Source: Candidatus Thalassarchaeaceae archaeon (GTDB lineage Archaea; Thermoplasmatota; Poseidoniia; Poseidoniales; Thalassarchaeaceae). Taken from it: a stretch of 58,973 nucleotides of DNA. How positions within the stretch are numbered: position 1 is the first letter of the stretch; each line of letters starts with the position of its first letter. This document shows, one piece after another, positions 881 to 48,698 of this stretch. Below the pieces are notes generated by a model. That model was given only the letters and a program-made list of their open reading frames with translations. It ran no database searches and was not told the DNA's origin. Both the position numbers and the translations under genes were made by a program. The stretch is taken from NCBI GenBank assembly GCA_029250605.1, contig JAQXEZ010000010.1, forward strand, positions 1-58,973. Direction: 5' to 3'.

Positions 881-1312
881 TCAAGGGGTTATCCTCGAAA
901 GCTCGGCCTGAAATCTAGTAGCACCCATTAAATGTAACACTGGGACAATTAGGGAAGAAATCGCAAGAACTCCGAAGAAGAGACCCGACCAGAGTTCTAT
1001 TCCTCGGCCGATGGAGAGGAAGAGGAACCATCCAATTAGAACGGAAATCCATGGGAGGTGCCTCCTGGTGTAAAGCGATAGTCGGGCATTTAGGGTTTCG
1101 TCGGAGTAGAACTGGGGAGTGTCATCAGGGTCGGCTAGTCCATTCTCCACGCCACAACGGGAGCAGACCTGGTATCTGGGTCCGTTCCCGGTGATGAATT
1201 GGGCCTGAGGATAGTTCTGCTTGCACATCCTGCATACTGGCATGATTCTCGTTCCGACCAGACGAGTGTTGTCCTTCAAGGCTACGGTCCTCGTCACTGG
1301 ATCAATCGTCAT
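881..1312 (-). CDS. Zinc-ribbon protein with C-terminal membrane segments
   Basis: A protein of 143 residues not recognised as a named family. The N-terminal half has a treble-clef/zinc-ribbon pattern, CRMC at 27-30 and CSRC at 50-53, likely binding one zinc. The C-terminal half has two hydrophobic stretches (WISVLIGWFLFLSIGR and GLFFGVLAISSLIVPVLHLM), so it is probably a membrane protein with a cytoplasmic metal-binding head. The ATG at 1312 overlaps the stop of the upstream giant surface-protein gene by 11 bases; a TTG at 1315 is an alternative. The overlap implies translational coupling, and the two products may act together at the membrane. Function unknown. Confidence 0.75.
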   Translation of the reverse strand: MTIDPVTRTVALKDNTRLVGTRIMPVCRMCKQNYPQAQFITGNGPRYQVCSRCGVENGLADPDDTPQFYSDETLNARLSLYTRRHLPWISVLIGWFLFLSIGRGIELWSGLFFGVLAISSLIVPVLHLMGATRFQAELSRITP

Positions 1313-4300
1313 CAAGGACGTCGTCCAAGAATGTCACGTCGATGTCCTCGGATTCTTCCTCATCGAGGTCGTCGGCTAGATCATTGAGTCCTTCTAGGCT
1401 GATCTCCTCCGTTTTGGAATCAAGTAGATCTGCCACAGACACATCGGGACCTTGCCACTCCTCTGGAGCGTCTTCAGTGGGGTTCTCGGAGAGTTCCTCC
1501 TCTGGCTCTTCCTCTTCGCTCTGTGATTTCCTTAGGATGGAGCTAGAGGCTATTTCCTCATCTTCCGAGATCCCCATTGCTTCCCTTGTCATCTCCTCCT
1601 CCATCTCGACCTCCTGAGTGCCCATCTCCCATGGCTGTGGAGCGGTTTTCTCTCTGGGTCTGATTATAAGAGCGGCACCGAGGATGACCATGATTGCTGA
1701 AACCATTATTATGACGGTGTTTAGGTCCCCGTCAACCAGTTGGTCGAACCAAGACTCGCCATCAGCCCCTGAACCGTCGGAGGACCTGCCGGGAGATAAC
1801 TCGGATAGAGGATAAACTCGTATCGAATCGACAGAGAGCCTGTGGACTTCGCCATCGAAGGCAACGACTGACAGCCAATATGGTGTCGAGGAACTGACGG
1901 ATGTCGGACCGATGTAGTCGAAAGAAGCGTTTGAGGTAACCGAGGAAGTCACGATGATCGCATCTCTGGTGTCCGAGAATTGCATCGTACTAGCGAAAAC
2001 GGTATAGGATTCCACCTGTGGGTCTTCCGAGTCAGTCCATAGGACCTCAATCCTGGATCCGGTGGCATCCCAGTACGCCATGACCTCAGAAACCTCTGGA
2101 AGGTGAATTCCGGGGTCTTGCGAGTTCTCATCTACAGGACTGATCATTGAAGTCTCGAGGTCGTCGATCCACGCGTTCCCGGAGGTGTCGACTGAAACCA
2201 CCGCAACCCACATCGGAATGTCGGGTTGAATGCCCTCTCCGCTAGAAAGTGCCTCCAGGAGGAACTGCCCACTATGAGTCCTGTCCAGAACCAGAGCCGG
2301 TTCGAGTCCCTCGGCGCTATCGAATGGTGCTCCGGCTACTGCGAAAACCCAGTACTCGGCAATGTCGGGATCGGAACTTGGTGAGAATGAGACGAGGATC
2401 CCGTCGCCTGAGTCCGGAGCCCTGTCCACCAGGGTTGGCGAGGGAACCCTATCCGGAGGGAACAGGTCGCCCCTGTTGTCTATGGGCGTGACTAGAGCCA
2501 TGTTGTCGCTAAAGTCTGAGAGTATCACGTTCCCGGCTATGTCGTGGATCGTGACGGTGACGTAGAGGGGCACATCAGGCGAAATTCGAGATGGTGATAG
2601 TTCATCGGCCTCTGTCCCATACAGAGCTGAAGACAGGGTCACCTCGAGGCGTGGGGAGTTCCCAATCTGCCTCTGATCGATAGTAACAAGGTTGCATGCG
2701 CCGCTTGATTCGCAGGCAGTGCTAACTTCGGTCAAGTCGTTCAGTGGGAAGTCTGACGCCCAAACCGTGTAATGACTGAAGTCTTCTGCCATTGTCCTGT
2801 CCCAACTTACGTCGATTGCCGTGCCGTCGTCGCCGGGATGGTCCCATGCCTGCAATCCTGAGACCATGTCTGGGGGGGTGAATTCGGAGGAGTCGAACTC
2901 GGAGTAACTGGCCGTCTCAACCACTAGTACCTCGTCGACGTTCTGATTGCCCCAGTCGTCAACAGCCACTACCCCTATCCAGTATACCACGTCGTTTTCG
3001 AGTGTTGAGTTGCCAATCGAATCGATTACGACCTCATCGGTGGTGCAATCGGTAACGAACTGTGCTACTGGCCATCCATCTACTGACGTCGGAGCGGTCC
3101 ATCCCGAGGCAGGGAGTATGTAGATGACGTGGAAGGAGCAATCCTCCTCCTGGTTAGGTTCCCATGTCACGATTATCCTGCCCCCCTCATCGTTGGGGGC
3201 GTCACTGACGGTGGTGCCAGTTATCGGTATCGGAGCTATACCATCATTGAGCCCACCTGCTGTGACGACAGGTCCGACCACAGTGGCGTTTGCAGGATCG
3301 AATTGCCCAGATTCGTCCACGCAGACGATTGCAAACCAGTAGGGGACATTGCCGTCTAGTTCGAGAACTGAAGAGTTCCCGGCGGCGAAGGAGAAGTCGA
3401 TTGGGTTCGAGAGGGCAAAGGCATTGGAAATCTCCTGCTGGACAGCCCAAATACGAGTGTATTGGGGATCTAGTTCCTGACAGGCTGACCACTCCGCGGA
3501 AACTGTCCCGGGAGTCCCGCCAGAGACCGGTTGTACCTCTAGCCACCCTGGAGGCGTTGGGATCTCGTCGGTTGGGGTTGCGTTCCCTTCCCACGAAATT
3601 GGGTCTCCAAGGCTACCATCAGAGTACTCAATAGCTACTGCCGCTCTGTATTGCCTCTGGTCTGAGAGTTGTACCTCGGAGCCATTGCTGTTTCCGGTGC
3701 TGAAGACTGCTGTGGTCTGAGACCAATAGGGGATTCTCTGGTAAGCAGGTAGATTGGGGAGATCCTCCTTGGATGGAGTCCACTGTGGGTTGTCCGTGGA
3801 GTCCCACAGATAAATCCTGTATGCCGACCAAGCCGAGTCCTGGGCTGGAAGCCACGATGCATGGAGGATTCCGCCTCCGTCGTTGGGACGGTCATATAGG
3901 CTCGTCATCACCGTTGGCGCCTCTACCCTCTCCCAGTCGTAGGAGACTCGAATCTTTATTCTCCCATCCTGAGGGGATTGCATTTGGAGGTGCACTGTCG
4001 AAGATAGGGCCCCCGGGGGGGTGTTGAAAATCGCAGTCTGGAAAGACTCCTCAATTCTGGAATCGAGAGATGCTAGGTCCCAACTACCTGTATAGTTGAG
4101 GTTGGTGGACTTGGCCCAGACCCACGACCCCCTCACAGGGGAAGAGAATGTCAGTGATCCTGGATAAAGAAGCAAATCGGAGGAGTTTGCTTGGTTTTGA
4201 TCGATTGGAATCGATACCGGGGATTCGTGTGAGACCAAATGGGTGGGCATTCCGGGCCTCGTAGTATCTGTAATGTCAAGCGTCCTGTCTGCGAAAATTG

Positions 4301-7300
4301 CGTTTAGTGGGTATGCCCTCCTCTGATTCTCCCTCGGGACCTCCCGAAGGGTCTCCATCGGCTTGTAGATGTGTAGTCCGTCCTCCCCGAGTACGGCTAG
4401 CCCCATCCACGCATCGGCATCTGCAGCCAAAGCACCCGGCATCTCACCGGTCATGACCACATCGTGGTCCCCCGTTGCCTTGACGATACTAATCTTGCTC
4501 GCTGATATCACTGCAAGGTGAGTCCCATCGGAAGCGAGGTCTGTGATAGGCCAACCCTGCAGGTCAATTGCCCCAGGACCGGCTTCCATGGCCATTGAAG
4601 TTCCATTCCAGTGCACTAGAGGCTGGTTCGAGGTTGCTATGTGGACACCCCAGAGATCTGTTTCGACTGCACTGACGTCGTTGCTGGGAATCATGTCAAT
4701 GTTGTATGTGCCGTTGTATCTGTCCGTTGAGACGTCCCATGCCGCGACCCCCGGCCTGGATGCTCCTTGACCGTTATGCGAGATGAAAATAGCTGAGTCG
4801 TGGTGCAGAGTAATCGTTGAACCAGTGGATGTGTCATTGAAAGTCCTGGAGACTGAGTCTGCATACACAATGCCAGAAACAAAGTCACCGACCAATCCGT
4901 CTGTCCTTCCGATTGTCCCGACGACTCCTAGGTTCTGGTCTAGGACGATCAGACCCGTTGGACCGCCAACGAGAACGGTCCCATTGCCAAGAATTGGTGC
5001 CGGTGGCACGAATAAATGGTTCGAGATTGGTGTCGGGAGACCATCAACCGTGGTAATTGGGTCGTCCCAATCGTTCTTAGTTAGGTTCCAGAGTCCTATT
5101 CCCCCGTGGGTTGAGACTAGGATGTGCTCCCCGTATTCCACGAAGTCTGTGACGATGTTGCTGGGGAGGCCGGCCAGAAGGCTGCCTTGACCCCAGGAGC
5201 GGGTCTCTGGATCGAATGTCTGGAATCCGGCAGAGCTCCCAGCCCAGCCCATGAGTCCGATGAAGATGTTCTCGCCGTCATGGAGTAGGCCGTCCATCTG
5301 GTTGTGTAACGCAGGTGGAGTCTGCTGGACTACCTTCTGGCTGAGGTTGAATGAGAATAGCCCGTTTCCAACGGTCGTGGCCCAAATCTCCTGGTCCACT
5401 AGCATTATTTCATTGATGGATTCGGAGAGGGCATCAAAGCCATACTGCCAATTTACCGAACCATTGTCGAGTAACTCGCCCTGGAGTACGGTGGATGACA
5501 GGGATGAGAACTCCGAGGAGCCGACTGTGACCCAAACGTGAGTCTCGTTGGAAATCATCTCGTGAACGATGCCAGAGGGGAGCCCGACCAACTCGTCGAG
5601 TCCACCCTCGATAAGGCCCGTGCTGTCAAGCCTGTCTACCCTGTTGATTCCAGAGAGGTCCCCAGATCTCCCTATGGCATAGGACCTGGAGCTCCCGGTG
5701 GGAACCCTGACTATGGAACACGAGTCCATTCCCAGGCCGATGACCTGCCCAGAAGTGGCTGATGACCCAGAGGTGATGACTCTAGTAATCCCCCCGCTCC
5801 CGTCATAATGGGAAGCCAATAGTAGATCGTCGTCGTAAAGCATACCGCCCGGGAAGACTGGATCCTCGGAGACGCCCATATCCGGGGTGAGTGTGGCGAG
5901 GAAGTTGTTAGAGGAGTAGTCGAATCGATCGATGCCGACGTTGTCGGTATCGAAGCCGATATACATTATTTCGTTCTCTTCGTCGCAAGCGAGGGCTCGA
6001 ACGTCCTTGTCGGCCATGTTTGAGTTATCTTCAGTAATGGGGGATAACCACTCTTCGGTGATTCCATCCCCGTCATGGTCTCCGAGGTCGAATCGGGCAA
6101 TCCCCCCTCCCACGGCCCACCACTGCCATGCGCTGAACCCGATTGCTACGTGTACGATATCGTGGCAAAGCAAGATGTCGGCTCCGTATCCATCGGGAAT
6201 GTCACTGGTATCGACATCCCAAATCGTCCAGTTGCTGGTGTTTCCTGATAGCCTCATCACATGGGCGTCGTTTCCGTAACCCGATGCCGTCCAGAGATCG
6301 TCTCCAACAACTTTCATGGAGTAGAAGTCTAGCTCCGATTCGGAAGGTAGTCCATCTCCAGGTAGCCAAGAGGATTGCCATGTCTCATTTGATGGATTCC
6401 AACGGAGGATCCCATTCATGCTGGCGAAGAGGTACTCTCCTTGGTACTCAACCATGCCCCTGATCCTTCCATCAACATCGTTCCATTGGTTCAGCAAGGT
6501 CATGTTTGAGGCAGAGAATCGTCTGAGGATGTTGTCTCCATATGCAACCCACATCTCACATGAGGTGTTTAGTGGGAAGCAATCGCCTAGGTATTGGGCA
6601 TTCACCCTGCCTACATCGCCAATCGTTTGTAGATCGTCCTCCCAGTCATCAGAGGTGGTGTTCCACCTCAGAATAGTCCCCGGATCCCCGGATCCACCCC
6701 ATCCGGAGATCTCTACGACGCTGATCCACACCTCATCGCCGATTTGGTTCATTCCGTGGATGACCCCGTTGAAACCCATGCGTTGTCCGGCATCAATTGT
6801 CGATAGTGTCGAATTGTTGTCCAGGTTGATTCTAGTGACCTCGTCCCTCGTGTTCCATGGTTGCCCTCTCTGGGGGGAGTAGAACATCACTCCTTCGACA
6901 ATTAGAATCTCGGCTGGGGAGTAGTTGGGAAGCGTTGGTCCGTCTTGGTTAGCGCCTCGGTCCCATTGAATCAGAGTCGTTTCGTTTACCAAATCAATCA
7001 GAGTGAGCCCGAAGTCTCCTCCAGCCCAAATAGTGCCCTCTTCCCTCCCCTCTATCATGACGGTGACATCGTCGTCCCCGATAATTCCCTGAGAGCCATC
7101 CCACGGCGTGAGCCAGGATCCGGAGGTGAGGTTGAATCGGGCGATTCCTAAGTTCTCAAATCCGAGGTATAGTGTCTCGCCGAATTTGACTACACGTGCT
7201 CTCTCGGTGTCGTCCCCAGCCGTCCAGACCTCCACAACGGTTCCATTTGATGTATTGATCACAGCTGCTCCCTCGGTTGTCCCAGCGTAGAGGAGATCTG

Positions 7301-9893
7301 AGCCGATTGGTTCCACGGAAAGCACGAATCTGGAAGGCATTCCATCGCCTTGCCCCCCTCCTCCATTGCCTCCTCCTGATGTCCAGCAGTCCTCTAGAGT
7401 GAATTGGGATTGGGGGTTGCTTGGGTCGGGCCAGTTCCACATGCATGCTCCCCTATTTGTACCGGCATAGACACCATTAGCATCGCTGGAGACATCGTAG
7501 AACTCGAAGGGATCGTTGTTCCAACCGGGGATGCTGGTTGGAAGCAGATCCCATGTTGAGCCATCCCATCGGGCAAGTCCTCCGTTCGCGTTTGCTCCGG
7601 AGTTCTGTACCTCTGAGCCAATCAGTAAACCACCGTAGAAATCCAATGACAGGGTGTTGACGTCCTCGTCTGGGATGCTGTTTGGATCGTCAGGTGTCCA
7701 AAGGTCGAGGATATCGCTCGTCAGCCTGTCGATGAGTAGAACTCCCAGACCTGGGAGACCGAGATAGATGACATCCCCGTCAACTGCAACGGGAGTTGAG
7801 TCTAGGTTGTCCACACCGAGAGACTGCCATGATCCGATGATGGCAGGAGTACTGAGGTCGATCCTCATCACCCCCGCCTCCTCGGTGGCGATGTACGCTA
7901 TTCCGAATCTGGTTGCGATATCTCGAATCATATCTGAGTCCAGTCCTTCTGACTCAGTGTAAGTCTCGATTACGTTGTTGGAATCTGTCGAGTAGAGTGA
8001 GATTCCCGATTCCGAATGCCCGATGACTAGGATTTCTGTGTTGGAGTCATATGCCAGACTAGTAATAGAGTTGGAGTTCAAGCCTTGGATTGTTTCAAAG
8101 TATGAGCCATCCACATTGCTCAACCTGTGGACTCCACTGCTTGTGGTGCCAACCCAAACCCAACCGTCTTCATCCTGTTCAATTGATGTGATATCGCCAG
8201 GTTCTAGCTGTGAAGTTAGGCTGTCTCCGATGTCGATTGGTTCCTTCCAGAGGTTATCCCTCTTGTCCATTATGTCGATGATGCTCCCAGATGCTATCCA
8301 GAACTCGCCTGCTTCTCCGTCGTCTATTATCGCAGTTACCTCGGCGGCGTCAATTGAAGGGCTGCTGACGAGGTGGAAGGAACCGTCCGAATTGTCCTCA
8401 AGAACCCGTCCGAATGTACCGGATGAGTCGCCGATTATTGCCATTGAACCAGAAGGAGCCCTGAGTAGTCCTCCGGGCCACGCACTGATGCTTGAAGCGG
8501 TTTCTGATAGCCCCAAGTCTTCCAATTGAATGTCGGAACTGAATAGCAGCAAATCGGTGTCGTAGGGTTGTACTTGCTCTTCTCCTAAGATGTAGAGCCA
8601 ACCAGGAACTGTCGCCAGTCCGACTAAATTGTTTGAAGAAAGCCAATTCGAAGAAGTCCAAGAAGGCATCCAGGAATTTGAAGAAAGGTCGAACCTGTCG
8701 ATTCCGGAGTCAGAGGTGGCAATGTAGAGGATATCATCCGAAACTGCGATGTCTGCTATTGAGTTCCCGGAGAGATAGTTGGAATCGTCCAAAACGATGT
8801 TCCTTTCAACATCAAGGGTTGTGGAGTCGTTGGCTGAAACATTGTATTCTATTACACGTACACCGTTTTCCTGAGTTGCTAGGAATAGTTCCCTCCCTTC
8901 GATGTGGATGCCGACTGGTGTCTCTGTATCCGAAGATGTGCAGAACTCAAATGTCTTCCAGAGAGCCCCCTTGGATGGCATTAGGTAGTGCATATTGCAT
9001 TCAGAGATAGCCCAAATAACTCCGAAAATGTCTACCTCCATTGCCATGATTGGATCGGAGAGAGAGAAGTTAGTGTCCACAGGGAAATCGGCCAATGGTT
9101 CTGAGTCAGAAAGACTCAGAGCTGTGACATTTCCCTCGGAATCTCCTACGTAGAGCAGCCCTCTGTTTGGGTCGGAGGTAATTGAACGCCCTTCAATGCC
9201 TGGAGTAATGTCGATAATGCGCTTGTTTGCGTTGTCGTCCAACTGGAGGAGGTCGTCATCAACGAGAATGTGCATCCTCCCATCGATTGGGTTGTAGGCA
9301 CTACCGTGAATCGACACCTCCAGAGGACTGAATGATAGTTTTGGATCGACGGGTCGGAGCGCTTCGATTACCAAATCTGTGATCTCAATGCCTGTGGGGA
9401 TCTGCCAAGAAGCGTCACTGATTGTATTTGGCTTCAGTGAAGCGTCCAAGATGCCCCCCACTAGACTGGGCGGGTTATCGGCGAAGTTGTTTTGCCTCCC
9501 CAAATCACCTCTTCCGCTCCAGTCAAGTATGCTTGTCTGTGTATCCATCACTGCAATCTGAGGTTGATTGGCCCAGTATCCATCGCTTCCGTTTACAGAG
9601 ATCTCTAGAGTAAGGTTGTCAATGACCGCACCGGGCGCGAACTCCAGGAAAAGATCGGCCAATGCAGGTGTTCCATTGGCAGTATCTGCACCAGTGGCAT
9701 CCAAGACTAGCCAGCCTGTGTCGTTGCTGCCGTTCTCTCCCCATGACTTGTCTGAGGCTTCCCCCCTAGTGATGGAGTCCTGTGGCTGCATTTCAAGACC
9801 TGATGGCAGAGATGGATTGGCACCCCAAGGAAGCAGAATCATCAGGACAACTAGGCCAATTGCCTTGATCTTTGCTCGCCCAGTCTTATCCAT
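1302..9893 (-). CDS. Giant surface protein: beta-propeller blades, FN3-like domains, membrane anchor, acidic tail
   Basis: This 2863-residue protein starts at an ATG preceded by GAAGAG. Residues 1-27 are a signal peptide (Lys/Arg then LVVLMILLPWGA). Roughly residues 180-1850 are dozens of short beta-propeller-like repeats of the kind DGWVWVGTTSSGVHRL and GLNSNSITSLAYD, resembling the two-component-regulator propeller (Reg_prop) family. From about 2000 to 2690 come some six fibronectin III-like domains, each with a motif such as DGTAIDVSWD and SHYTVWASD. A membrane span lies near 2722-2744 (VIIMVSAIMVILGAALII), followed by Arg-Pro-Arg-Glu-Lys and a 119-residue tail very rich in Glu and Asp. 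The expected topology is a large extracellular part with the tail in the cytoplasm. It could be an adhesin or polymer-binding surface protein, or a sensor; no enzymatic domain is visible. It overlaps the following zinc-ribbon gene. Confidence 0.85.
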   Translation of the reverse strand: MDKTGRAKIKAIGLVVLMILLPWGANPSLPSGLEMQPQDSITRGEASDKSWGENGSNDTGWLVLDATGADTANGTPALADLFLEFAPGAVIDNLTLEISVNGSDGYWANQPQIAVMDTQTSILDWSGRGDLGRQNNFADNPPSLVGGILDASLKPNTISDASWQIPTGIEITDLVIEALRPVDPKLSFSPLEVSIHGSAYNPIDGRMHILVDDDLLQLDDNANKRIIDITPGIEGRSITSDPNRGLLYVGDSEGNVTALSLSDSEPLADFPVDTNFSLSDPIMAMEVDIFGVIWAISECNMHYLMPSKGALWKTFEFCTSSDTETPVGIHIEGRELFLATQENGVRVIEYNVSANDSTTLDVERNIVLDDSNYLSGNSIADIAVSDDILYIATSDSGIDRFDLSSNSWMPSWTSSNWLSSNNLVGLATVPGWLYILGEEQVQPYDTDLLLFSSDIQLEDLGLSETASSISAWPGGLLRAPSGSMAIIGDSSGTFGRVLEDNSDGSFHLVSSPSIDAAEVTAIIDDGEAGEFWIASGSIIDIMDKRDNLWKEPIDIGDSLTSQLEPGDITSIEQDEDGWVWVGTTSSGVHRLSNVDGSYFETIQGLNSNSITSLAYDSNTEILVIGHSESGISLYSTDSNNVIETYTESEGLDSDMIRDIATRFGIAYIATEEAGVMRIDLSTPAIIGSWQSLGVDNLDSTPVAVDGDVIYLGLPGLGVLLIDRLTSDILDLWTPDDPNSIPDEDVNTLSLDFYGGLLIGSEVQNSGANANGGLARWDGSTWDLLPTSIPGWNNDPFEFYDVSSDANGVYAGTNRGACMWNWPDPSNPQSQFTLEDCWTSGGGNGGGGQGDGMPSRFVLSVEPIGSDLLYAGTTEGAAVINTSNGTVVEVWTAGDDTERARVVKFGETLYLGFENLGIARFNLTSGSWLTPWDGSQGIIGDDDVTVMIEGREEGTIWAGGDFGLTLIDLVNETTLIQWDRGANQDGPTLPNYSPAEILIVEGVMFYSPQRGQPWNTRDEVTRINLDNNSTLSTIDAGQRMGFNGVIHGMNQIGDEVWISVVEISGWGGSGDPGTILRWNTTSDDWEDDLQTIGDVGRVNAQYLGDCFPLNTSCEMWVAYGDNILRRFSASNMTLLNQWNDVDGRIRGMVEYQGEYLFASMNGILRWNPSNETWQSSWLPGDGLPSESELDFYSMKVVGDDLWTASGYGNDAHVMRLSGNTSNWTIWDVDTSDIPDGYGADILLCHDIVHVAIGFSAWQWWAVGGGIARFDLGDHDGDGITEEWLSPITEDNSNMADKDVRALACDEENEIMYIGFDTDNVGIDRFDYSSNNFLATLTPDMGVSEDPVFPGGMLYDDDLLLASHYDGSGGITRVITSGSSATSGQVIGLGMDSCSIVRVPTGSSRSYAIGRSGDLSGINRVDRLDSTGLIEGGLDELVGLPSGIVHEMISNETHVWVTVGSSEFSSLSSTVLQGELLDNGSVNWQYGFDALSESINEIMLVDQEIWATTVGNGLFSFNLSQKVVQQTPPALHNQMDGLLHDGENIFIGLMGWAGSSAGFQTFDPETRSWGQGSLLAGLPSNIVTDFVEYGEHILVSTHGGIGLWNLTKNDWDDPITTVDGLPTPISNHLFVPPAPILGNGTVLVGGPTGLIVLDQNLGVVGTIGRTDGLVGDFVSGIVYADSVSRTFNDTSTGSTITLHHDSAIFISHNGQGASRPGVAAWDVSTDRYNGTYNIDMIPSNDVSAVETDLWGVHIATSNQPLVHWNGTSMAMEAGPGAIDLQGWPITDLASDGTHLAVISASKISIVKATGDHDVVMTGEMPGALAADADAWMGLAVLGEDGLHIYKPMETLREVPRENQRRAYPLNAIFADRTLDITDTTRPGMPTHLVSHESPVSIPIDQNQANSSDLLLYPGSLTFSSPVRGSWVWAKSTNLNYTGSWDLASLDSRIEESFQTAIFNTPPGALSSTVHLQMQSPQDGRIKIRVSYDWERVEAPTVMTSLYDRPNDGGGILHASWLPAQDSAWSAYRIYLWDSTDNPQWTPSKEDLPNLPAYQRIPYWSQTTAVFSTGNSNGSEVQLSDQRQYRAAVAIEYSDGSLGDPISWEGNATPTDEIPTPPGWLEVQPVSGGTPGTVSAEWSACQELDPQYTRIWAVQQEISNAFALSNPIDFSFAAGNSSVLELDGNVPYWFAIVCVDESGQFDPANATVVGPVVTAGGLNDGIAPIPITGTTVSDAPNDEGGRIIVTWEPNQEEDCSFHVIYILPASGWTAPTSVDGWPVAQFVTDCTTDEVVIDSIGNSTLENDVVYWIGVVAVDDWGNQNVDEVLVVETASYSEFDSSEFTPPDMVSGLQAWDHPGDDGTAIDVSWDRTMAEDFSHYTVWASDFPLNDLTEVSTACESSGACNLVTIDQRQIGNSPRLEVTLSSALYGTEADELSPSRISPDVPLYVTVTIHDIAGNVILSDFSDNMALVTPIDNRGDLFPPDRVPSPTLVDRAPDSGDGILVSFSPSSDPDIAEYWVFAVAGAPFDSAEGLEPALVLDRTHSGQFLLEALSSGEGIQPDIPMWVAVVSVDTSGNAWIDDLETSMISPVDENSQDPGIHLPEVSEVMAYWDATGSRIEVLWTDSEDPQVESYTVFASTMQFSDTRDAIIVTSSVTSNASFDYIGPTSVSSSTPYWLSVVAFDGEVHRLSVDSIRVYPLSELSPGRSSDGSGADGESWFDQLVDGDLNTVIIMVSAIMVILGAALIIRPREKTAPQPWEMGTQEVEMEEEMTREAMGISEDEEIASSSILRKSQSEEEEPEEELSENPTEDAPEEWQGPDVSVADLLDSKTEEISLEGLNDLADDLDEEESEDIDVTFLDDVLDDD

Positions 9894-46066: not shown

Positions 46067-46194
46067 GAACTGGAGGAAACGAAGGGGAGAGCGAGATAGG
46101 AGCTGAAGAGATACATGTGCGTAGGGGGAAGAGAATAATCCTGGGTCACATAGGTGGGGAACGAAGGGGAGAGAACTGGAGGAAACGAAGGGGA
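46067..46194 (+). repeat. Two copies of a 22-base purine-rich direct repeat
   Basis: An identical 22-base element beginning gaactggaggaaacgaag occurs at 46067-46088 and 46173-46194, 106 bases apart. A partial third copy (acgaaggggaga) lies at 46160-46171. The surrounding 46060-46340 is strongly purine-rich on the plus strand. The copies lie inside the RNA candidate, not in a gene. Confidence 0.8.
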
Positions 46195-46380
46195 AGGAAG
46201 CTGAGGGAAACACTGGGCAACAAGGGCGGGGAGACCCGTGGAGAAGCTAGTATCGAGACGTGGAGGGAAAAGCGGAGACGAAGTACCCGAAACGGATGCG
46301 GCGAATGAGAGGGAGATCTCACGTGAGTCGGAAAATGACAAAGGAAGAGCACGAAGTTCCAGAGTCGTCTACCCGGGGAA

Positions 46381-46523: not shown

Positions 46524-48125
46524 TTACGAGCTCGGGCCTGTCATTTCCCTAGGTTTTACCCATTCTGAAAACTGATCATCGGTGAGAAACTTGAGTTGGA
46601 TGGCGCTCTCTCTAAGGGTCAGCCCTTTCTCGTGAGCGTTCTTTGCAATTTTAGCAGCATTGTCGTACCCTATGTGAGGGTTTAGTGCAGTTACCAGCAT
46701 CAATGAGTTCTCCAAATGGTCAGAAATTTTCTCTTCGTTCGCTTCCAAACCGATAACACACTTGTCGGAGAAGGATACGCAAGTGTCGGAAAGTAGTCTT
46801 ATGCTGTGCAAGAGGTTGTGAATCATCATTGGCTTGAATACATTCAACTCGAAGTTTCCCTGACTTCCACCTATAGAAATTGCAGTGTGATTACCCATTA
46901 CCTGGCAGCAAACCATTGTCATCGCTTCTGATTGGGTTGGATTCACCTTTCCAGGCATGATGCTGGATCCTGGCTCATTAGCTGGAAGGGCAAGTTCTCC
47001 AAATCCGCACCTGGGCCCAGAACCTAGCCATCGAATATCATTGGCGATTTTCATGAGAGATGCTGAGAGGGTGTTGAGTGCTCCGGAGGCAGCGACAATG
47101 GCATCGTGTGCAGCGAGTTGGGCGAACTTGTTTTCGGCACTAATGAAAGGGAGCCCGGTCTTCTCGGCTATCTTCTTGGCGACCAAGTCTGCGAAGTCGG
47201 GATGGGTGTTCAGCCCCGTACCAACGGCAGTTCCGCCCAGAGCGAGTTCAAGTAGGTCATTCAGTGCTGTTTGGATCCTGATTAGGCCAGCATCCAACAT
47301 CGAAACATATGCTCCGAACTCTTGGCCTAGAGTTAGCGGGACGGCATCCATCAGATGAGTTCGTCCAATCTTGACAATATGCGCGAACTCATCTGCCTTT
47401 TCAGCCAGGGAAGTTCGAAGTTTCTGCACAGATGGGATGAGTCGGTGCTGGATCTCCTCTGCTGCAGCGATATGCATTGCAGTGGGGAATGTGTCATTGC
47501 TAGACTGGGCGCGGTTAACGTGGTCATTCGGGTGGACAGGGGATTTGCTTCCCAGCTTCCCTCCTGAAGACTCTATGGCTCTATTTGCAATTACCTCATT
47601 TGCATTCATGTTAGTCTGGGTTCCCGAACCGGTCTGCCAAACCCTGAGTGGGAAATGGTCGTCAAGAGACCCGGAAATTACCTCTTCGCATGCCTGTGAA
47701 ATGAGGGTTCCAACATCATCTTCGAGAGATCCCAGAAATACGTTTGTCTCGGCGGCTGCCTGCTTAAGAATCCCAAACGCTCGGATGACTGATCGGGGCA
47801 TCTGGTCTTCGCCAATATCGAAGTTGATTAGCGACCTAGCAGTTTGTGCTCCGAAATATCTGTCTGTTGGCACCTCAACTTCCCCCATAGTGTCTAGCTC
47901 AATCCTAACCTTCCCACGGACACCCTTGGGAGCCCTTGAAACGGATGATTTGGTAGCTATCTGATGGGCATTGCCCCCTGTGAGCGAAGACTCAATCATC
48001 TTGGAGACAGTTGCCGATCTGCCCTTCTCACGTCCCTGACCAACCCGTGCATCCAATCTTCTAGCCAAATCCTCTGGAATGCTGACAGTGATTATTCTAC
48101 GATCGCCGACTCTGTGCTTTGCCAT
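46524..48125 (-). CDS. fumC: Class II fumarase with fused N-terminal ribbon-helix-helix domain
   Basis: Hydrates fumarate to malate in the TCA cycle. The fumarase part begins near residue 70 ([20 protein letters not shown]). It contains [18 protein letters not shown], the substrate-binding [40 protein letters not shown] and the family signature [17 protein letters not shown] near residue 385. Class II enzymes are oxygen-stable and need no iron-sulfur cluster. Residues 8-50 ([20 protein letters not shown], then [14 protein letters not shown]) match a ribbon-helix-helix of the CopG/MetJ type, normally a DNA-binding dimerisation fold. A linker of about 20 residues joins the two. The frame is continuous, without a frameshift. 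A TATA-like element lies 26-35 bases before the ATG, so the messenger may be nearly leaderless. A direct DNA role is inferred and would be unusual. Confidence 0.92.
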
Positions 48126-48150
48126 GTTGTCTCGATTAATAACTTATTAA

Positions 48151-48160
48151 TAAATATATT
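48151..48160 (-). promoter_or_regulatory. TATA box of the RHH-fumarase gene
   Basis: On the minus strand the sequence AATATATTTATTAATAAG is strongly TATA-like; its core sits 26-35 bases before the ATG at 48125. With normal archaeal spacing transcription would begin within a few bases of the ATG, and no ribosome site is visible, consistent with a leaderless messenger. The palindromic TTATTAATAA at 48144-48153 could also be an operator. Confidence 0.6.
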
Positions 48161-48171
48161 CTTTCTTGGTT

Positions 48172-48654
48172 TCAGACCCGTTCTACCTTGATGATCTTCT
48201 GAGGTGACGACGGCCTGTCGCCAGAGCGTGTCTCTGTGGATTCGATTGCCCTAACCACTTCCATCCCCTTGGCGACCTCTCCGAATACTGCATGTCTACC
48301 GTCGAGCCATGGAGTGACTACGGTGGTGAGGAAGAATTGCGACCCCCCGGTGTTCGGACCTGCATTTGCCATTGAGAAGATGCCTGGCTTGGCATGCTTC
48401 TTTCCTAATGCTGAAGGCTCGCAGGGAATTTTCCAACCCGGGCCCCCCGTCCCGGCCCTTCCATTGTTTGCATCACTGGAGTGGGGGCACCCTCCTTGGA
48501 TCATGAAGTCCTTGATGACACGATGAAAGTGTAATCCGTCATAGAATCCGTCATCCACCAATTTTAGGAAATTCCCAGTAGTCTCTGGGCATTCGTCAGT
48601 ATACAACTCTATGTCAATTTCTCCAGCGCTTGTAGTCATCCTCACGTAAGTCAT
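48172..48654 (-). CDS. Peptidyl-prolyl cis-trans isomerase, cyclophilin type
   Basis: A single-domain cyclophilin of 160 residues that speeds proline isomerisation during folding. Conserved stretches are FHRVIKDFMIQGGCP near residues 43-57 (catalytic Arg and Phe), GIFSMANAGPNTGGSQFFLT near 91-110 and WLDGRHAVFGEVAKGMEVVR near 115-134. No signal peptide is present, so it is cytoplasmic. ATG 48654 gives the usual N-terminus TYVRMTTSAGEIDIELY; a TTG at 48681 would add nine residues without family support. It lies between CsaA and the RHH-fumarase, all on the minus strand, with 44- and 46-base spacers. Confidence 0.94.
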   Translation of the reverse strand: MTYVRMTTSAGEIDIELYTDECPETTGNFLKLVDDGFYDGLHFHRVIKDFMIQGGCPHSSDANNGRAGTGGPGWKIPCEPSALGKKHAKPGIFSMANAGPNTGGSQFFLTTVVTPWLDGRHAVFGEVAKGMEVVRAIESTETRSGDRPSSPQKIIKVERV

Positions 48655-48698
48655 ATTGTGTATCGGCCGTTCCAAGTTCAATATGGTATGGTTGGTGG

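Follow-up and report, generated by a model that had tools for sequence, protein, structure and literature searches.

A class II fumarase with an N-terminal ribbon-helix-helix domain in Poseidoniales archaea, and a conserved element in the promoters of the fused genes

The DNA-binding domain of proline utilization A (PutA) is a ribbon-helix-helix (RHH), and the enzymes BirA, NadR, PepA and PyrH have other DNA-binding folds. Escherichia coli PutA is described as a single-target trigger enzyme, in which metabolic activity is combined with a DNA-binding domain whose one target is the putA-putP intergenic region, and BirA, NadR, PepA and PyrH are given as other E. coli trigger enzymes, i.e., enzymes that double as transcription regulators (PMC8249747). 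In this study, we analyzed a 58,973-nt stretch of DNA from a Candidatus Thalassarchaeaceae archaeon (contig JAQXEZ010000010.1; hereafter, the window), in which a class II fumarase is joined to an N-terminal RHH domain. The likeness to PutA lies in the combination of a metabolic enzyme with a DNA-binding-type domain, and an action of the window fumarase on its own promoter is proposed by analogy. PutA differs in being a bacterial proline dehydrogenase that is switched by proline and the membrane and acts on a divergent putA/putP operator; BirA, NadR, PepA and PyrH differ in belonging to other pathways. RHH regulators of the CopG/NikR type share the strand-helix-helix pattern and the Pfam RHH_1 family with the window protein, but they are stand-alone proteins and are not joined to an enzyme of the TCA cycle. 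Conversely, class II fumarases without an extension share the core of the window protein (fumarate hydratase 3e04, for example, is matched from residue 69), but neither 3e04 nor the others have an N-terminal RHH domain within the match. In the open-licence (as opposed to subscription) papers of PMC, our searches turned up no fumarase described as having a DNA-binding domain. A survey of archaeal fusions lacks the word 'ribbon' in the part of its text consulted, where the passage on fumarate hydratase concerns class I subunits (PMC11237513).

The fused ORF (46524..48125, minus strand) encodes 533 amino acids plus a stop and is open from its ATG with no internal stop. Residues 73-533 (46527..47909, minus strand) constitute the fumarase core, with matches to TIGR00979, Lyase_1 and FumaraseC_C. 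The match to TIGR00979, the NCBIfam model for class II fumarate hydratase, covers residues 73-529 and scores 782.2 bits against a cut-off of 664.75, and the protein also passes a broader model for the aspartate ammonia-lyase subfamily (NF008909; 544.9 vs. 510 bits). The fumarase signature segments, GRTH among them, are invariant in 29 of 29 aligned relatives. The initial annotation had read the ORF as a complete fumarase with all signatures, fused in frame to an RHH at residues 8-50, and both parts of that reading stand: the ORF encodes an RHH domain followed by a complete fumarase of class II, with hydratase activity predicted. Matches to the 46 distinct PDB sequences found at E-values up to 1e-50 begin at residues 54-74 of the window protein. 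A search of its own genome returned a single other match at 26% identity, which is probably another member of the lyase superfamily.

The RHH domain occupies residues 1-50 (47976..48125, minus strand), with a strand at about residues 9-16, helix A at about 18-28 and helix B at about 36-49, and is followed by a hypervariable linker at residues 51-72 (47910..47975, minus strand), delimited by column entropy and a low pLDDT in the structural model. Taken alone, the window copy matches Pfam RHH_1 weakly at residues 12-38 (E-value of 0.054 for the whole protein, 0.0036 for residues 1-78 and 0.0017 for residues 1-52), and its score of 18.7 bits lies just under the curated cut-off of 20.5. When 33 orthologous domains from the 74 distinct fused proteins in hand were scanned against Pfam, RHH_1 was matched by all 33 at E-values up to 1, the best being 4.5e-6. 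The identity of the domain, for which a comparison with RHH families had been suggested, is thus settled by the family as a whole in spite of the sub-threshold window copy. The AlphaFold2 monomer model of the domain alone contains a strand at residues 9-12 and helices at 18-28 and 36-49 with modest confidence (mean pLDDT of 68). In the full-length model, the order of strand, helix and helix is unchanged with the RHH at low confidence, and residues 46-59 fall under a pLDDT of 50. A PDB search with an RHH profile (A1) at E-values up to 10 returned solely five chains of nickel-responsive regulators, so that NikR-type chains are the nearest PDB sequences, although weakly (best E-value of 1.4). No PutA chain was among these matches, and the enzyme core of the window protein is that of a fumarase.

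The extension is translated and is under strong purifying selection, unlike the variable linker that follows it. The start codon is an ATG at the identical residue in 74 of 74 distinct fused proteins (genome G070, outside this set, has V at the start residue), and the nearest in-frame stop upstream lies only 1-14 codons away in 64 of the 74 and 18-45 codons away in the others. Mean column entropy is 0.91 bits over residues 1-50, 3.0 bits in the linker (around residues 51-69) and 0.63 bits in the core. Among 12 pairs of relatives, dN/dS was 0-0.09 for RHH residues 1-49 (10 computable pairs), 0-1.19 for the linker (11 computable) and 0.01-0.07 for the core (11 computable). Because of the uniform position of the ATG and the low dN/dS of the RHH, the extension is more than a chance in-frame addition.

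The initial annotation had proposed a search for this architecture across Poseidoniales, and it was found to be common in the order. A protein search matched 144 of 145 Poseidoniales genomes at an E-value of 0.001, in six of them by a distant match only. With eight loci set aside because they run into a contig end, are N-masked or could not be read, and with L017 removed because it duplicates L292, 136 copies were readable, of which 93 are fused (92 genomes) and 43 are unfused (41 genomes), with one genome, G077, having both. By sequence, enzyme and DNA-binding-type domain are therefore united in one polypeptide in 92 of the 132 genomes with a readable fumarase start. The 13 uncounted genomes comprise six with set-aside loci only and seven without a close match; part of the RHH is visible at the set-aside loci of G119 and G026. 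Unfused copies start near residue 70. Two families make up this distribution, f1 and f2, which on the names of similar loci would be Thalassarchaeaceae and Poseidoniaceae, respectively. In f1, which holds the window, 64 of 67 readable copies are fused and the three exceptions make up genus g8, and f2 has 29 fused and 40 unfused copies. Outside the order, we found no fused match when the RHH profile was run over 389 genomes of the phylum (Poseidoniales included) at E-values up to 1e-4; three weak matches outside the order lay in open frames of 81-137 amino acids, none of them fused. Likewise, a protein search of 243 phylum genomes turned up no match outside the order with a start before residue 48 at E-values up to 1e-60.

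In a FastTree phylogeny of 125 fumarase cores (87 fused and 38 unfused, with the RHH left out), the fusion label needs six changes, at least five of them on starred branches, against a mean of 32.5 when labels are shuffled. On this midpoint-rooted tree, the distribution is most simply read as one old gain followed by about five losses. Relatives lacking the extension had been named as grounds for abandoning the fusion. Such relatives do exist (the 43 unfused copies), but 92 of 132 genomes are fused, and on the midpoint-rooted tree repeated loss from a fused ancestor is the simplest account of them. Several candidates were discarded along the way. Genome G084 and contig G004:C16, an apparent loss and a stand-alone domain, are both contig-edge cases. 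A plasmid-borne fused relative was also considered: among the five listed of 364 matching plasmid records, the alignments of two gonococcal ones begin at residue 19, and one of their ORFs, judged by eye, is without an RHH. Seven pattern matches bearing on a viral origin were obtained, and none was confirmed. One genome bin, G077, holds an unfused (L146) and a fused (L147) fumarase gene together, and contamination or transfer is possible there since the unfused gene groups with genus g12. At another locus (L145; G047:C6:90500-96000), a very divergent RHH is joined to fumarase although the rest of the clade is unfused, and an exact TTTATTAATAA precedes the gene; we read this fusion as a late remnant or a re-gain.

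Since RHH domains are obligate dimers, the domain might mediate dimerisation or protein interactions, so as to tether or stabilise the fumarase, and have no part in transcription control. The variability of the linker would agree with such a role. Fumarases without the domain are common, however (43 of 136 readable copies), one of them (L086) was scanned and passes the TIGR00979 cut-off with 762 bits, and a purely structural role would leave the promoter element described below unexplained. We regard this explanation as very improbable.

Upstream of the fused gene, a 17-bp dyad, ATTAATAA-G-TTATTAAT (48135..48151, minus strand), ends 9 bp before the ATG with 8 of 8 arm positions matched, and constitutes a candidate operator. 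It overlaps TTTATTAA (48147..48154, minus strand; -29 to -22), hereafter the core, which is a putative TATA box. Among fused promoters of at least 45 bp, 90 of 92 have the core within one mismatch (70 exact and 20 with one mismatch), 89 of them at -28 to -32 and one scored at -44. By comparison, it was found in none of 43 unfused promoters, the best of which has three mismatches. The longer 19-mer TTTATTAATAANTWATTAA, comprising the core and its dyad extension, occurs within three mismatches in 68 of the 92 fused and again in none of the 43 unfused promoters. The initial annotation had noted an exact palindrome in this promoter. There is indeed a palindrome, TTATTAATAA, at 48144-48153, and it is conserved, but the conserved element extends beyond it, the TATA box may account for its first half, and in most genera it is unremarkable as a palindrome for DNA this rich in AT. 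The best 8+8 palindrome reached a shuffle p of up to 0.05 in 19 of 87 distinct fused promoters and was clearly above shuffles only in genera g1, g10 and g12, and palindromicity was dropped as evidence. The case for the element rests instead on its conservation and exclusivity, because palindrome strength seldom beats shuffles. Additional copies were seen in places. Five of 87 loci (L226, L227, L239, L242 and L247), in genera g10 and g12, have the element twice, with the extra copy farther upstream, and at L012 the element and its flank are duplicated about 40 bp upstream, possibly as an assembly artefact because Ns lie nearby.

A TATA box of a near-leaderless archaeal transcript is expected where TTTATTAA sits, and this position, together with the promoters of a sister order, makes it probable that the core is such a box. 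This raises the alternative that the element is a strong core promoter only, a TATA box with an AT-rich start region, and that the RHH acts elsewhere or without sequence preference. Consistent with that alternative, several fused genera retain little beyond the TTTATTAA core, and in the sister order the promoters have a TTTTTAATA-like box at a similar place, separate from their repeated element. Three observations argue against it. First, in 46 distinct promoters from six f1 genera, information content per column amounts to 1.95 bits for the core and 1.45 bits for the extension, as opposed to 0.39 in the 30 bp before and 0.34 in the 6 bp after; the alignment was anchored on the core, which inflates the value for the core and not for the rest. 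The conserved extension lies downstream of the core and mirrors it. Second, TTTATTAA is found in 42 of 53 fumarase promoters vs. none of 144 further promoters from these loci. This control is weak, given that some starts may be miscalled, and its promoters show no clear TATA signal. Third, an exact match to the 18-bp TTTATTAATAANTNATTA occurs nowhere else in the 145 genomes. On balance, we consider the core-promoter explanation unlikely, if the most serious of the alternatives.

The 18-bp pattern merits closer attention. Across the 145 Poseidoniales genomes, TTTATTAATAANTNATTA has 41 exact matches, every one of them upstream of a fused start; the distance is no more than 45 bp for 40 of these and 327 bp for the remaining one, where an N gap intervenes. 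As the pattern was drawn from fused promoters, its presence there is partly by construction, and it is the absence of the exact pattern elsewhere that counts as evidence. When one mismatch was allowed, 76 matches were obtained, compared to, by our tally, 45 for the reversed-pattern control. Of the 35 one-mismatch sites, 17 are at the promoter and two, from genus g12, represent a second copy 56-57 bp upstream; the other 16 lie elsewhere, a number below that of the control. Within the 1.48-Mb window genome, TTTATTAATAASTWATTAA matched within three mismatches at this site only, plus its own overlapping reverse reading, although this count alone proves little because the reversed-pattern control also gave two matches. 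The 11-mer TTTATTAATAA with one mismatch gave four matches in that genome, two of which are this site, and nine in the control. It is conceivable that a separate regulator, such as a stand-alone RHH protein, binds the element and that the fused RHH has a different role. The window genome does encode a second RHH protein (L161:1604-2035, on contig G000:C7; Pfam RHH_1 E-value of 6.9e-5), and weak stand-alone RHH matches recur in family f1. Nevertheless, only one locus in the genome was found to have the element, which immediately precedes the RHH codons and is absent from 43 of 43 unfused copies, and we judge a separate regulator improbable.

The link between element and domain has its weaker points. 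At three mismatches, the 19-mer is missed in 24 of the 92 fused promoters, namely all of genera g4, g6, g14 and g20, the single promoter of g11, four of 12 in g13 and one of four in g2. Among the larger groups, the RHH of g14 is the most different (GRSAWIV in place of GRSATI), and its promoter has TTTAATAAC with other sequence downstream. When fused and unfused copies were contrasted at five independent points on starred branches, the core went the same way as the domain in 5.0 contrasts on average and the 19-mer in 4.2, with neither ever going the opposite way, but a sign test cannot reach 0.05 since the independent contrasts number just five. Moreover, because the domain adjoins the element at 9 bp, one 5' deletion could remove both jointly. 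At the unfused locus L095, both neighbours of its fused relatives are retained, with 32 bp to the upstream gene, and at the unfused L106 the upstream neighbour is retained at 43 bp. In the window, the upstream neighbour is a cyclophilin-type peptidyl-prolyl isomerase on the same strand (48175..48681, minus strand; Pfam PF00160). Such a gene also precedes many fused and some unfused copies, and we treat it as context outside the mechanism.

The reading we prefer, and which we consider probable, is that the RHH-fumarase is a PutA-like, single-target trigger enzyme that represses its own promoter, with DNA binding predicted. RHH segments from two subunits of the fumarase tetramer would pair to form a DNA-binding dimer, and this dimer would bind the dyad in the fumarase promoter, which overlaps the TATA-like core and continues downstream of it. 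Once bound, it would compete with TBP/TFB, and expression of fumarase would be damped as the protein builds up; repression, as opposed to activation, seems the likelier outcome. It is tempting to speculate that fumarate or malate in the active site alters DNA binding. The earlier suggestion that the fumarase regulates its own gene has indirect support from a conserved promoter element that accompanies the fused genes, with DNA binding predicted. If autoregulation is correct, a TCA-cycle enzyme with a DNA-binding domain of its own would directly tie flux to transcription in uncultured archaea, which are abundant in the surface ocean and in which gene regulation is little known. With a short domain and a putative operator narrowed to about 17 bp, the idea lends itself to tests in vitro without culturing.

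A parallel arrangement was found in a sister order of the same class (f3), presumably Marine Group III, and provides a second test of the same principle. Of its 21 genomes, 18 were matched, two of them partially, and all 18 loci (L311-L328) encode a different N-terminal domain of roughly 95 residues (YTSIRVTKEV...) on a core of the fumarase/aspartase family. Fumarase activity is less certain here because the cores of the two proteins scanned fall below the TIGR00979 cut-off (522 and 518 vs. 664.75 bits) and one of the two exceeds the threshold of the aspartate ammonia-lyase subfamily model (527 vs. 510), as the window protein does. The N-terminal domain looks RHH-like by eye only; it gave no RHH match in Pfam, NCBIfam, PHROGs or the PDB and no profile match to the Poseidoniales RHH. 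Of its three weak matches in the phylum outside f3, the two inspected were uninformative. In 18 of 18 promoters of these genes, a TATA-like box is preceded by a repeated 34-bp element, GTATGCA-AAA-TGCATA..., which is degenerate in G417. With up to one mismatch, GTATGCAWAWTGCATA was found in 18 of the 21 genomes and, among the matches listed, always just before such a gene, and the reversed-pattern control gave one match. The site in G420 is likewise positioned immediately in front of such a gene, which is cut off inside the domain by the end of the contig. Tentatively, we suggest that two sister orders each wired fumarase to its own promoter, with an RHH and an AT-rich dyad in Poseidoniales and with another domain and the GTATGCA-AAA-TGCATA repeat in f3. 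Both enzymes would then be single-target regulators that read a TCA-cycle intermediate and set their own synthesis, and domain and operator would be kept or lost together in sub-lineages.

Elsewhere in the window, a short purine-rich tandem repeat with a 24-bp unit in 2.3 copies lies downstream of the fumarase gene (46156-46211), and a very long ORF of roughly 2860 codons occupies positions 1302-9893 of the minus strand.
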